From Deltaproteobacteria bacterium (GTDB lineage Bacteria; Desulfobacterota; Binatia; DP-6), in assembly GCA_005879795.1 (NCBI GenBank), contig VBKJ01000140.1:1-36031 (forward strand): a DNA stretch of 36,031 nucleotides. Direction: 5' to 3'. Made by a program: the position numbers and the translations under genes. This document shows, in pieces, positions 30,960 through 36,031 of the stretch (position 1 is its first letter; each line of letters starts with the position of its first letter). The notes beneath the pieces were generated by a model, which worked only from the letters and a program-made list of their open reading frames with translations, was not told where the DNA came from and ran no database searches.

Positions 30960-32179
<1,220 letters not shown>

Positions 32180-32183
<4 letters not shown>

Positions 32184-32902
32184 GCCGATCTCCGGCCTGG
32201 CACGCGGCGCGGCAGCTGGCCATCGTGCGCCACCTGCCCGTCCACCAGCTGCACCAGGCGCCCGGCGTTGGCGGCGATGTCTGGATCGTGGGTCACCAGG
32301 ACGATGGTGATCCCCTCTTCGGCGTTGAGCTGCCGCAAGAGCCCCATGATCTCCTGGCTGGTCCGCCTGTCCAGGTTGCCCGTGGGCTCGTCCGCCAGAA
32401 TCAGGCGCGGGCGATTGACCAGGGCGCGGGCGATGGCGACGCGCTGCTGCTGTCCGCCGGAGATCTGGCCAGGTAGCGACGCTGCATACGGGCCCAGCCC
32501 TACGTGCTCGAGCATCCGGCCCGCCCTGGGGAGCCGCTCCGACTTGCCGACGCCCGCATACACCAACGGCAGCGCCACGTTGTCCAGCAGGGTTGCCCTG
32601 GGCAGCAGGTTGAAGCCCTGGAAGACGAAGCCGATCGCCCGGTTGCGCAGATCGGCGAGCTGGTCCCGGTTCAGGGCGCCGACGTCGCGGCCCTCGAACT
32701 CGTAGGTCCCGCTGCTCTGCGCGTCGAGGCAGCCGAGGATGTTCATGAGCGTCGATTTCCCCGACCCGGAAGGCCCCATGATGGCGACGAATTCCGCCGG
32801 CTCGATGTCGAGGTTCACGTCCGTCAGCACCGGAACGGGCCCCGCCCCAGTCTCGTAGTGCTTGCCGAGGTGCGCCAGACGGATGACCGGTTCGGCCGGC
32901 AT
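32180..32902 (-). CDS. MacB-like ABC transporter ATP-binding protein
   Basis: 240 residues. Walker [20 protein letters not shown]-loop [20 protein letters not shown], signature [18 protein letters not shown], Walker [13 protein letters not shown] and H-loop [13 protein letters not shown]. The [14 protein letters not shown] and [16 protein letters not shown] stretches are typical of the LolD/MacB subgroup. It energises the permease encoded next. Its ATG shares a base with the macA stop (TGATG) and its stop overlaps the permease start, so adaptor, ATPase and permease are strictly coupled. Confidence 0.94.
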
Positions 32903-34083
32903 CAGAACAGCCGTATCTGGAAGGTGCTCGCCGATGGGCTCGCCGGAGCGGCGGCTTCCCGGTCCTCGACCACCACCTGGGCGCCGGGCTCGAGCTCGCC
33001 GGAGACGACCTCGGTGTAGCGGTTGTCGGTGATTCCCGGGACGATGCTGACGCGGCGCAGCTGGCCACGCTGCTGGTCGTTTTCGAGCACGTAGATCGTG
33101 GCCGTCGGGCCCTCGCGCTTTTCCTCCGGACCCCGCTGCGACGCTGCCACCAGGGCAGGCTCCATGGGCCTGAAGCGCAGCGCCGCGTTGGGCACCGCCA
33201 GCACGCCCTGGCGCCGGGCGACGAGGATGTTCACGTAGGCGGTCATCCCCGGCAGCAGGATCTGGTTCGGGTTGTCCACCGCGACGACCACGTCATAGGT
33301 CACCACGTTCTGCTGCGTCACCGGATTGAGCCGGATCAGCTTGACCGTCCCCTGGAACGCGCGGTCGGGGAAGGCATCCACCTTGAAGCTCACCGGCTGC
33401 CCGACCCGGATGTTGCCGATGTCCGCCTCGGCGAAACTCGAATCGATCTGCATCTTGGTGAGGTCCTGGGCGATGAGCAGCAGGGTCGGCGTCTGGAAGG
33501 TCGCCGCGACGGTCTGGCCCACGTCCACCTGCCGGTCCACGACCACGCCCGACACCGGCGAACGGATGACCGTGTAGCCGAGATTGGTCCGGTCCTTCTG
33601 CAATTGCGCCCGCGCCAGCGCCAGCTGGGCCCGCGCCGACTTCGCCGCCTCCACCGCCTGGTCGAGTTCTTGCCTGGAGACTAAAGCCTGGCGCTGCAGT
33701 TGCCGCATCCTGGCCTCGTTGGCGACGGCGAGTTCGAGGGCGGCCCGAGCGTTGGCGACGTTGGCCTCGCTCTGCTGCACCTGGGCGCGAAACAGGGCGT
33801 CATCCAGCTCCACCAGCACCTCTCCCGGGTAGACCCGGTCGTTGAAGTCAACGTGGAGCTTGCTCACCGTACCCGACACCTGGGTGCCCACGCGCACCAG
33901 CACCACCGGGTTCAGAGTGCCGTTGGCCGACACGGCCTGGCTGATGTCCCCCAGCCCCGCTGCCTCTGTCCCGTAGCGCTCGCCCGCCGCGTGCGGGGAT
34001 GCCGTCCGCAAACCGGCCAGCGCAACGCCGCCCAGGAGGATCGGCAACGCGATCTTCTTCCGCAGCAAACGCCTCAAGCCCAT
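32902..34083 (-). CDS. macA: MacA-type periplasmic adaptor (membrane fusion protein)
   Basis: 393 residues with one N-terminal membrane anchor (KIALPILLGGVALAGL). The barrel-sandwich domain is split by a long helical hairpin: VRVGTQVSGTVSKLHVDFND and YTVIRSPVSGVVVDRQVDVG, with a hairpin around VAKSAR-like repeats (QVQQSEANVANARAALELAV, KSARAQLALARAQLQKDRTN). The beta-barrel and membrane-proximal domains follow (GQPVSFKVDAFPDRAFQGTV, VNILVARRQGVLAVPNAALR). It links the inner-membrane ABC pair to a TolC-type channel; none is encoded next to it here, so it probably uses a channel encoded elsewhere or the CusC-like protein. GAGGGG precedes the ATG. Codon use is slightly less GC-extreme than in the upstream genes, which would fit transfer. 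Confidence 0.92.
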   Translation of the reverse strand: MGLRRLLRKKIALPILLGGVALAGLRTASPHAAGERYGTEAAGLGDISQAVSANGTLNPVVLVRVGTQVSGTVSKLHVDFNDRVYPGEVLVELDDALFRAQVQQSEANVANARAALELAVANEARMRQLQRQALVSRQELDQAVEAAKSARAQLALARAQLQKDRTNLGYTVIRSPVSGVVVDRQVDVGQTVAATFQTPTLLLIAQDLTKMQIDSSFAEADIGNIRVGQPVSFKVDAFPDRAFQGTVKLIRLNPVTQQNVVTYDVVVAVDNPNQILLPGMTAYVNILVARRQGVLAVPNAALRFRPMEPALVAASQRGPEEKREGPTATIYVLENDQQRGQLRRVSIVPGITDNRYTEVVSGELEPGAQVVVEDREAAAPASPSASTFQIRLF

Positions 34084-34242: not shown

Positions 34243-34278
34243 AAAAAAGCCCGCCGGCCGAGACCGGCGGGCTTTTTT
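34243..34278. terminator. Perfect rho-independent terminator
   Basis: AAAAAAGCCCGCCGG (34243-34257) and its exact reverse complement CCGGCGGGCTTTTTT (34264-34278) form a 15-bp stem with a six-base loop and T tracts on both strands, so it works bidirectionally. It lies 24 bases past the stop of the minus-strand Gly/Ala-rich gene, whose transcript it should end, insulating it from the macA operon beginning at 34083. Confidence 0.92.
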
Positions 34279-34301: not shown

Positions 34302-34598
34302 TCAGAACGCCAGTCCGATGCCGGTCCCGATGCCAACCGCGGCAGCGCCACCGCCGCCGACAGCGGCCCCTACGCCCGTACCCACGGCGACGGCGCCCCC
34401 GCCCCCGCAGCAGCCGCAGCACCCGCAGTCCGACGCGACCGCCGCAGCGGCCGCGGTGCCGACGGCCGCCGCGCCTCCGCCACCCCCCGCCACCGCGGCG
34501 CCGGTCCCGGCGCCCACCGCCGCCACGTCCGCCAAGCTGAGGGTACTACCCAGGAAAGTCATGGATGCAACCAGAAGTGCCTGTGCGAATCGTTTCAT
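34302..34598 (-). CDS. Secreted Gly/Ala-rich protein with central Cys cluster and internal duplication
   Basis: 98 residues. The ATG at 34598 was chosen over 34604 because AGGAG lies seven bases before it. A signal peptide (MKRFAQALLVASMTFLGSTL then SLA|D) precedes two similar Gly/Ala/Val segments: GTGAAVAGGGGGAAAVG (31-47) and GVGAAVGGGGAAAVG (75-89). Between them is a DCGCCGCC cluster with five cysteines (58, 60, 61, 63, 64). I do not recognise a family. The composition suits an amphipathic or membrane-inserting peptide of bacteriocin-like or glycine-zipper type, and the cysteines could bind metal or form disulfides. It has its own ribosome site and terminator and sits beside a MacAB exporter. 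Function unknown. Confidence 0.65.
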   Translation of the reverse strand: MKRFAQALLVASMTFLGSTLSLADVAAVGAGTGAAVAGGGGGAAAVGTAAAAAVASDCGCCGCCGGGGAVAVGTGVGAAVGGGGAAAVGIGTGIGLAF

Positions 34599-34619
34599 GC
34601 TCATGCTCCTTTCCGAAAG

Positions 34620-34644: not shown

Positions 34645-35054
34645 CGCCTTTCGACGCCACCAGCAGTGGCGAAGGCGGCCCTCGATCGAGAGGCCGAGTG
34701 CGTCCTCCCGTCCTCTCTGCGAGCGTGATCATCACTCTACGCACGGACATCATTTTGCCGGCGGGAGGAACGAGAACAAGTCCGTTGAAACCCTGAAAAT
34801 GGGGTAGGGTAATCACCTGGGAGCGCAGCTGGGATCAGGCCACCGCCTCGTCACCTTGACGCAGCGTGGTTGCCCCTTTTGATCGAGGAGCACTGGCGCC
34901 GGAGAACGCGGGCTCACGAGATGTTGGGCGGGAGAACATCTGCCCGCGGTCGAGCAAGCGGGGCCATGGTACGGATGCACGTAGCGAGGGCGCACGCCGC
35001 CGGCCGTCCCGACGGCTGTATTGCGCAAGTCGGCGGACGAAGCCATAGCTACAG
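34645..35054. other. Long intergenic region without a convincing gene
   Basis: About 400 bases hold no ORF with coding-like composition; short readings in several frames lack a ribosome site. It contains a small hairpin (CGCCAC 34655-34660, GTGGCG 34666-34671), a 10-base palindrome CTCGATCGAG (34681-34690) and a promoter-like pair TTGAAA (34785-34790), 17 bases, GGTAAT (34808-34813) on the plus strand, 290 bases before the next gene. This could be a long leader or a small RNA; I see no conserved RNA fold that I can name. Confidence 0.35.
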
Positions 35055-35080
35055 CTAGTGTGGTGTCCACACCACACTAG
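35055..35080. promoter_or_regulatory. Perfect 12-bp inverted repeat before the RsbR-type gene
   Basis: CTAGTGTGGTGT (35055-35066) and its exact reverse complement ACACCACACTAG (35069-35080) flank a two-base CC spacer. The site ends 22 bases before the ATG at 35103 and just before AGGAGGG (35089-35095). The tiny spacer makes it a poor RNA hairpin but a good dimer-binding operator, so repression at or just after a transcription start is the likeliest role. Confidence 0.6.
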
Positions 35081-35102: not shown

Positions 35103-36031
35103 ATGAGAGCGTATCGCTCGCCCGTGCCGGCTGCCCCTGCCCGCCCGCGGTTGGCGCCCGCGAGGACCGGCCGGCGCTCTGCCGAGCCGGACGCACCTCC
35201 GCCGGCCCGGACCTCGGCGGCGGTGCTTCTGCGTGAGATCGTGGCGCACCTGCGGCAGTGTCGCGTTCAACTTCGCGACGAATGGGTGCGGCGCATCATC
35301 GAGGCGCGGACCCTCACGGCGATGAGCCAGGAGGAGATCTTCGCGGAAGCGACGTCCATATTTGACAACTACCTCGATGCCCTGGAGACCGGCACCCTCG
35401 AGGCGGTGCAGGCCTACGCCGGACAGCTGTCCGAGCGCATCGTGCCGCGCGGCGTGGAGACGCGCGAGGTGGTCGGCATCGTGCTGCTCCTGCGCGACGT
35501 GCTGGCCCGCTCACTGTTCGCCAACTACCGCGCCGACTTCCCGCTGTTGAACCGGGTCCTCGACGCCTACGAGCCCGCCGCAAACCGCATCGCGACGACC
35601 GTGGCGGCGGGGTTCGTGCACGAGCGCGAGCGGGTGATCCGCGAGCAGCAGGAAGCCATCCGCGAGCTGTCCACGCCCGTGTTGCCGGTGCGCGAGCGGC
35701 TGCTCATCCTGCCGATCATCGGGCTCATCGACGGCCAGCGCGCCCGCCAGCTGACCGAGCAGCTCCTGCGCGCCATCCGCGCCAACCGCGCCAAGGTCGT
35801 CGTCATCGACATCACGGGCGTCCCGGCCATGGACGCCGACGTGGCGAACCACCTGGTGCGAACCGTGGATGCGTCGCGGCTCCAGGGCGCCAAGGTGATC
35901 GTCACCGGCCTGTCGCCCGAGATCGCCCAGACGCTCGTCACCATCGGCGTCGACCTGAGCAAGATGAACACCGTTGGGGACCTGCAGGGCGGCATCGAAG
36001 AAGCGGAGCGGCTGCTCGGGTACCAGGTGGT
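35103..36031 (+). CDS. RsbR-type STAS-domain stressosome protein (C-terminus outside window)
   Basis: At least 309 residues; the ATG at 35103 has AGGAGGG seven bases upstream. A Pro/Ala/Arg-rich tail (1-40) precedes an all-helical RsbRD/N-terminal sensor domain (about 43-180: LREIVAHLRQCRVQLRDEWV, MSQEEIFAEATSIFDNYLDA, VLLLRDVLARSLFANYRADF). A linker helix REQQEAIRELSTPVLPV leads into the STAS domain: LPIIGLIDGQRARQLTEQLL, VVVIDITGVPAMDADVANHL and AKVIVTGLSPEIAQTLVTIG. This is the RsbR/RsbS arrangement of stressosome scaffolds. The two threonines phosphorylated in B. subtilis RsbR (as I recall T171 and T205) correspond here to G211 (LIDG) and A245 (PAMDA), so the RsbT switch sites appear missing. 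Confidence 0.88.
   Translation, partial: MRAYRSPVPAAPARPRLAPARTGRRSAEPDAPPPARTSAAVLLREIVAHLRQCRVQLRDEWVRRIIEARTLTAMSQEEIFAEATSIFDNYLDALETGTLEAVQAYAGQLSERIVPRGVETREVVGIVLLLRDVLARSLFANYRADFPLLNRVLDAYEPAANRIATTVAAGFVHERERVIREQQEAIRELSTPVLPVRERLLILPIIGLIDGQRARQLTEQLLRAIRANRAKVVVIDITGVPAMDADVANHLVRTVDASRLQGAKVIVTGLSPEIAQTLVTIGVDLSKMNTVGDLQGGIEEAERLLGYQV

Follow-up and report, generated by a model that had tools for sequence, protein, structure and literature searches.

A rare, fast-evolving Gly/Ala peptide encoded beside MacAB in Binatia as a candidate secreted beta-sheet protein

The locus raises the question of whether a short open reading frame for a Gly/Ala-rich protein is a gene and, if so, what its product would do beside a MacAB-type exporter. 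The frame lies in a 36,031-nt stretch of DNA (the window) from a Deltaproteobacteria bacterium of the GTDB lineage Binatia, DP-6 (contig VBKJ01000140.1, assembly GCA_005879795.1). Our preferred reading, to which we give a probability of about 0.4, is that the gene encodes a fast-evolving, Sec-exported peptide that may act as a beta-sheet, either in self-assembled form or within the outer membrane. The features of the locus are collected in Table 1.

Table 1. Features of the locus, with positions given in the window
Feature	Position	Strand	Remarks
Gly/Ala peptide gene	34302..34598	-	98 aa; G005 homologues share start context and stop
Ribosome-binding site GGAAAGGAG	34606..34614	-	Identical in 3/3 copies
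Probable Sec signal peptide	34530..34598	-	Cut after LSLA, LSWA in G005; by eye on alignment
Strand unit 1, AAVGAGTGAAVAG	34485..34523	-	Tiny/bulky alternation
Strand unit 2, AAAVGTAAAAAVAS	34431..34472	-	Tiny/bulky alternation
Variable linker, D-CGCCGCC-GGGG	34395..34430	-	Cys cluster 34407-34427; acidic or mixed Cys/acidic in G005
Strand unit 3, AVAVGTGVGAAVG	34356..34394	-	Tiny/bulky alternation; low-confidence beta-hairpin in model
Strand unit 4, AAAVGIGTGIGLAF	34305..34346	-	Low-confidence beta-hairpin in model; Phe end in 3/3 copies
Terminator	34243..34278	-	Hairpin with perfect 16-bp stem and runs of A and T
Conserved upstream box GGTRATTNCCYTACC, imperfect dyad	34803..34817	-	Possible regulator site
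MacA-like membrane-fusion protein	32902..34083	-	393 aa; orthologues 81-82% in G005 and G004
MacB-type ATPase	32180..32902	-	
MacB-type permease with periplasmic domain	30960..32183	-	
STAS-domain protein	35103..36031	+	Divergent from peptide gene; cut by contig end; orthologue near G005 locus

The gene and its relatives

Three copies of the gene are compared here: one in the window's own genome (G000) and two tandem homologues, 63 and 64% identical to the window copy, in a genome of a different genus of the same family (G005). These two genomes gave the only true matches in a protein search of seven same-family genomes (2/7). A further match in G006 (E 0.007) was rejected, being a partial, charged stretch within a 291-aa frame. 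In 148 genomes of the class, a single-protein search matched four at E <=0.001, of which G000 and G005 are true; the matches in the other two (G055 and G096) are partial and fall within open frames of 496 and 656 aa. A profile search of the same number of class genomes matched three, two of them genuine (again G000 and G005); the third, in G109 (E 9.6e-4), covers part of a 494-aa frame and contains charged residues. The same pair was recovered with a degenerate DNA pattern for the C-terminus (2/145 class genomes). Among 395 genomes of the phylum, the one match was G000 itself, G005 presumably not having been drawn into that set.

Wider searches were negative. The peptide was absent from the 28 genomes behind related MacA loci, in a search that carried no positive control. 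An alignment-based scan of genome contigs returned 111 pattern stretches and confirmed none, and here low-complexity filtering may mask relatives. Plasmids yielded zero matches, as did the sequences of solved structures in the PDB at E <=10. No family in Pfam, NCBIfam or PHROGs matched the window copy at E <=1; Pfam was likewise negative for the two G005 copies at E <=0.01, and NCBIfam for all three copies at E <=1. These results agree with the preliminary description, which could match the protein to no named family. In addition, a non-exhaustive literature search found no paper on this peptide. Within the collections sampled, the distribution of the gene is narrow and lineage-restricted, and the family is real, rare and unnamed.

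The expression signals are shared by the copies. The start codon is the second in-frame ATG, 7 nt past GGAAAGGAG; the in-frame ATG two codons earlier was rejected, as the ribosome site is too near to it. The start region, GGAAAGGAGC(A/G)TGAGCATGAAACG, has zero mismatches in all three copies, and the pattern does not occur elsewhere in the seven family genomes at <=3 mismatches. The signal peptide, as judged by eye, consists of MKRF, a hydrophobic core and LSLA, with D as the next residue. The 3' hairpin has an MFE of -37.2 kcal/mol over a 67-nt stretch (z -5.5) and, being palindromic, is possibly a bidirectional terminator. A simple scan did not pick it up as a terminator, probably owing to the T-run being part of the stem, and gave no sigma-70-type promoter either. 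Thus, the position first given for the frame was exact, and its description as a real gene with a signal peptide, its own ribosome site and its own perfect terminator held up, the signal peptide by eye.

Both G005 copies have their own conserved upstream region and their own strong 3' hairpin. The latter (L005:1159-1255 and L005:1807-1880) have long, similar GAGTTGCCC-type arms and, unlike the window's terminator, lack a T-run.

The MacAB neighbourhood and export

Genes for MacA, an ABC protein and MacB lie downstream of the peptide gene on the same strand, so that the location beside a MacA/ABC exporter, as first described, is correct and recurs in G005. MacAB thus adjoins the peptide gene consistently (2/2 genomes with the gene), in two genomes only, and this could reflect simple inheritance of one ancestral locus. 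In G005, the genes for MacA (81% identical to its counterpart in the window), ABC and MacB follow both copies, and an additional secreted-looking protein of 208 aa intervenes. This protein (L010:8608-9234), which is placed between the second peptide copy and macA, has a signal-like start and no Pfam match; it is mostly present at the end of a contig of G004 as well and is missing from the window. The MacA orthologue in G004 (82%) sits 598 bases from a contig end, a distance too short to show whether the peptide gene accompanies it.

The best-surviving alternative makes the peptide an exported bioactive molecule, bacteriocin-like or a signal, that Sec would deliver to the periplasm and MacAB would carry outward. 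The adjacency on one strand in both genomes favours this reading, and tandem copies combined with fast change would fit an arms race. There is also a precedent, since an excerpt of one report describes MacAB-TolC as exporting the Sec-delivered enterotoxin STII from the periplasm (PMC8277102). The peptide resembles STII-type substrates in its signal peptide, its small, Cys-containing form and the MacAB next door; however, its cysteines are not conserved in the homologues. The ATPase in the window scores, below cut-off, on models for bacteriocin and darobactin export, but such scores are those of any MacB/LolD relative. Furthermore, the peptide gene is parted from macA in the window by its own terminator, no immunity gene was recognised, and none of the three copies matched a known bacteriocin family in NCBIfam or Pfam.

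Related MacA loci also speak against the cargo reading. In other genomes of the collection, the nearest MacA proteins are 48-64% identical for the first 30 loci and mostly carry beta- or gammaproteobacterial titles. At the 22 loci inspected, of 80 fetched, no G/A-rich peptide is encoded upstream of macA; instead, the upstream frame is an outer-membrane efflux protein in 5/5 tested. A scan of fetched loci for short, G-rich secreted frames returned the G005 copies only, the window copy itself falling just under its hydrophobicity cut. Taken with the absence of any family match, these findings leave the cargo reading doubtful, and export of the peptide by MacAB is best described as possible.

Several other features of the neighbourhood were observed. 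Unlike most of the best-matching MacA loci (<=64% identity), the window has no outer-membrane-factor gene in view beside its MacAB genes (30960-34083). Genes of the STAS/RsbR, response-regulator and kinase types lie near the locus, in an order that differs between the two genomes. The STAS protein in the window has an RsbRD-like N-terminal match just under Pfam's cut-off; its gene is divergent from the peptide gene, whereas its G005 orthologue is downstream of macB. There (L010:12386-16461), a response regulator, RsbT-like ATPases and the RsbR/STAS gene are found. An inverted repeat (35055-35080) lies some 20 bp ahead of the STAS gene start in the window; it has 12-bp arms and a 2-bp spacer (CTAGTGTGGTGT-CC-ACACCACACTAG) and is possibly an operator.

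Strand units of the mature peptide

The mature peptide has 75 residues, comprising four predicted strands of 12-14 residues that are arranged as strand 1, GGGG, strand 2, linker, strand 3, GGGG and strand 4. The pattern common to the strands is A-A-V-G-T-G-T-G-V-A-L-A-L. The protein was first described as built from a duplicated segment: the two halves are indeed alike, but the unit repeats four times and each half is a pair of strands around a Gly run. The likeness of the halves exceeds that expected from composition (P 0.0005 for the window copy; 0/2000 shuffles in both G005 copies) and persists with the tiny and bulky classes held fixed (P 0.009 for the window copy, then 0.001 and 0/2000 for the G005 copies).

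Within the strands, tiny residues (G/A) alternate with bulkier ones in all copies, which is the signature of a beta-strand. The lag-2 autocorrelation of residue size gives z values of 3.7, 4.9 and 4.3 in the three copies. Consistent with this, the class switches at 34/50, 40/48 and 40/49 neighbouring pairs, compared to 23-26 in within-strand shuffles (0/5000 as high), with strand boundaries set by eye. As a control, 26 G/A-rich stretches of 72 residues were taken from the fetched DNA; the six from these genes took the top ranks, and z peaked at 1.5 among the remaining 20, in what is a small set. The window copy is richer in Ala and follows the alternation less strictly. A Fourier test at 180 degrees is strong for the window copy only (0/2000; P 0.97 and 0.52 for the G005 copies), and we suspect that phase shifts between strands weaken the signal in G005. 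The lag test is unaffected by such shifts. A single-sequence model of the mature window peptide has a mean pLDDT of 47.7, with a hairpin in the second half only, and is taken as a hint, no more.

The peptide could instead be a small inner-membrane protein with two glycine-zipper helices, one span per half, and a polar linker between them. Each half indeed offers about 30 uncharged residues, with charged residues confined to the start of the mature part and to the linker, and the Kyte-Doolittle maxima over 19 residues (1.35-1.80) are compatible with membrane helices. However, the strong period-2 pattern is present in all three copies, none of which has a significant signal at 100 degrees, the helix angle. 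The GGGG runs would fall mid-helix, and beta is the only secondary structure in the low-confidence model. A helical form is therefore unlikely.

In the preferred, beta-sheet reading, the peptide would cross the inner membrane through Sec and be cut by signal peptidase at LS(L/W)A, before D. The mature chain would then form four short beta-strands, with one face of tiny G/A residues and an opposite face of V/T/L/I/F; oligo-Gly turns would pair the strands, and the polar, fast-changing linker would join them. Less well supported is the next step, in which the peptide would be a sheet material that self-assembles outside the cell or on its surface, like silk or chaplins in principle. Of similarly limited support is the alternative that its oligomers form a beta-sheet in the outer membrane; the chain ends in ...GIGLAF or ...GVALAF. 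The neighbouring MacAB may carry the peptide beyond the periplasm or shield the cell against it. A sheet-forming peptide of just 75 residues would make a compact natural beta-repeat, and a new candidate for a MacAB export substrate or partner; without sheet formation, the peptide would rank as a minor, lineage-restricted one of the envelope.

Known systems offer partial parallels. The chaplins of Streptomyces are short, secreted, hydrophobic, amyloid-forming proteins. The peptide is likewise small, hydrophobic, predicted to be Sec-secreted, probably beta-forming and multi-copy, but it has no match to the chaplin domain in Pfam (window copy, E <=1; G005 copies, E <=0.01), carries Gly/Ala/Val repeats and Gly runs in its place, and comes from a different lineage. 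With silk-like Gly/Ala beta repeats it shares the tiny/bulky alternation, the richness in Gly and Ala and the uncharged strands; however, it is bacterial, has 75 residues and only four units, and the resemblance is one of kind, with no sign of common descent. With outer-membrane beta-barrel strands and the anchors of trimeric autotransporters (YadA) it has in common the four short strands, the Gly-richness and the C-terminal Phe. This Phe follows an alternating strand in 3/3 copies, which by itself argues weakly for a barrel or an anchor. Against these systems, the peptide has no Pfam anchor or barrel match, no aromatic belts and no charged or polar pore-facing residues, and is only 75 residues long.

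A more elaborate version would make this a silk-like family of surface peptides in Gram-negative bacteria. Here, the four alternating strands would form the sheet, the triplet-repeat linker would swap between Cys-rich and acidic forms and so re-tune cross-linking or metal binding between paralogues, export or assembly would involve MacAB, and control would be by stress (STAS/RsbR-type). This combination is quite unlikely.

Selection on the frame and the linker

That the frame drifts, kept open by chance in high-GC DNA, has to be weighed, as the window copy compared with those of G005 gives a dN/dS of 0.95-0.99. The values for the neighbours MacA, ABC, MacB and the STAS gene are 0.40, 0.38, 0.31 and 0.38, with similar dS, and a non-synonymous change is 2.3-2.8 times as likely in the peptide gene as in MacA (odds ratio; P 0.0003 and 1e-6). 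Two other frames score below the annotated one over the full alignment (ratios of 0.61-0.72), so that codon positions do not single it out. Taken together, these ratios mean that the classical coding test gives the gene no support. The narrow distribution also suits drift. The antisense Pro/Ala frame was rejected as the gene, having no conserved start and crossing the terminator in the window, although other frames are compatible with the codon statistics taken alone.

Other kinds of change argue against drift. The ribosome site, signal peptide and stop are all conserved. Indels in the gene are of 3, 9 and 12 nt, all multiples of three and in the linker only, whereas upstream indels relative to the window copy are of 1, 1, 2, 7 and 14 nt. 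The gene also differs less than its own upstream DNA (63/291 vs 71/195, P 0.0004; in the second such comparison, 67/300 vs 78/195, P 3e-5). Further support came from residue chemistry. Of the 62 core codons outside the linker, 18-19 differ between the window copy and those of G005, yet in none of the three copies does this core encode Pro or a charged or polar (N, Q, H, Y, W, C) residue. When neutral change relative to the window copy was simulated, under six settings, about 6-9 such residues were expected and zero was reached in <=1 per 1000 runs (P about 0.001 or less); the same test between the two G005 copies alone is weaker (P 0.015-0.05). Drift is improbable on this evidence, and our conclusion is that of a real gene in which selection holds chemistry, not sequence. 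The case is thus one of a secreted peptide that is near-free in sequence and fixed in residue chemistry, for which dN/dS alone would say drift.

The linker is where the copies depart most from the preliminary description. Its five cysteines are present in the window copy as CGCCGCC, but the cluster is not conserved: the G005 linkers read R-GCDCDDDDES-GA and G-DDEDESS-G. As Asp/Glu stands in its place in the homologues, the cluster was rejected as a conserved core or defining feature. The Cys counts of 5, 2 and 0 in the three copies depart from the conserved Cys pattern of metallothionein-like proteins. The linker is encoded by runs of TGC/GGC or GAC triplets, which could slip, and is the sole site of indels. 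A conserved metal site is unlikely in a segment that is variable, built of triplet runs and the only place of insertion and deletion.

It is consequently very improbable that CGCCGCC is the centre of a dedicated metal-binding (metallothionein-like) or disulfide-linked peptide, even though five of seven residues there are Cys and the Asp/Glu and Cys of the G005 linkers are all possible ligands, since thiolate and carboxylate clusters prefer different metals. The metal-binding lead first raised for this peptide falls, with one homologue free of Cys and the other holding two. The linker fits better as a polar, exposed and mutable loop, in which, on the beta-sheet reading, the exact ligands would be irrelevant.
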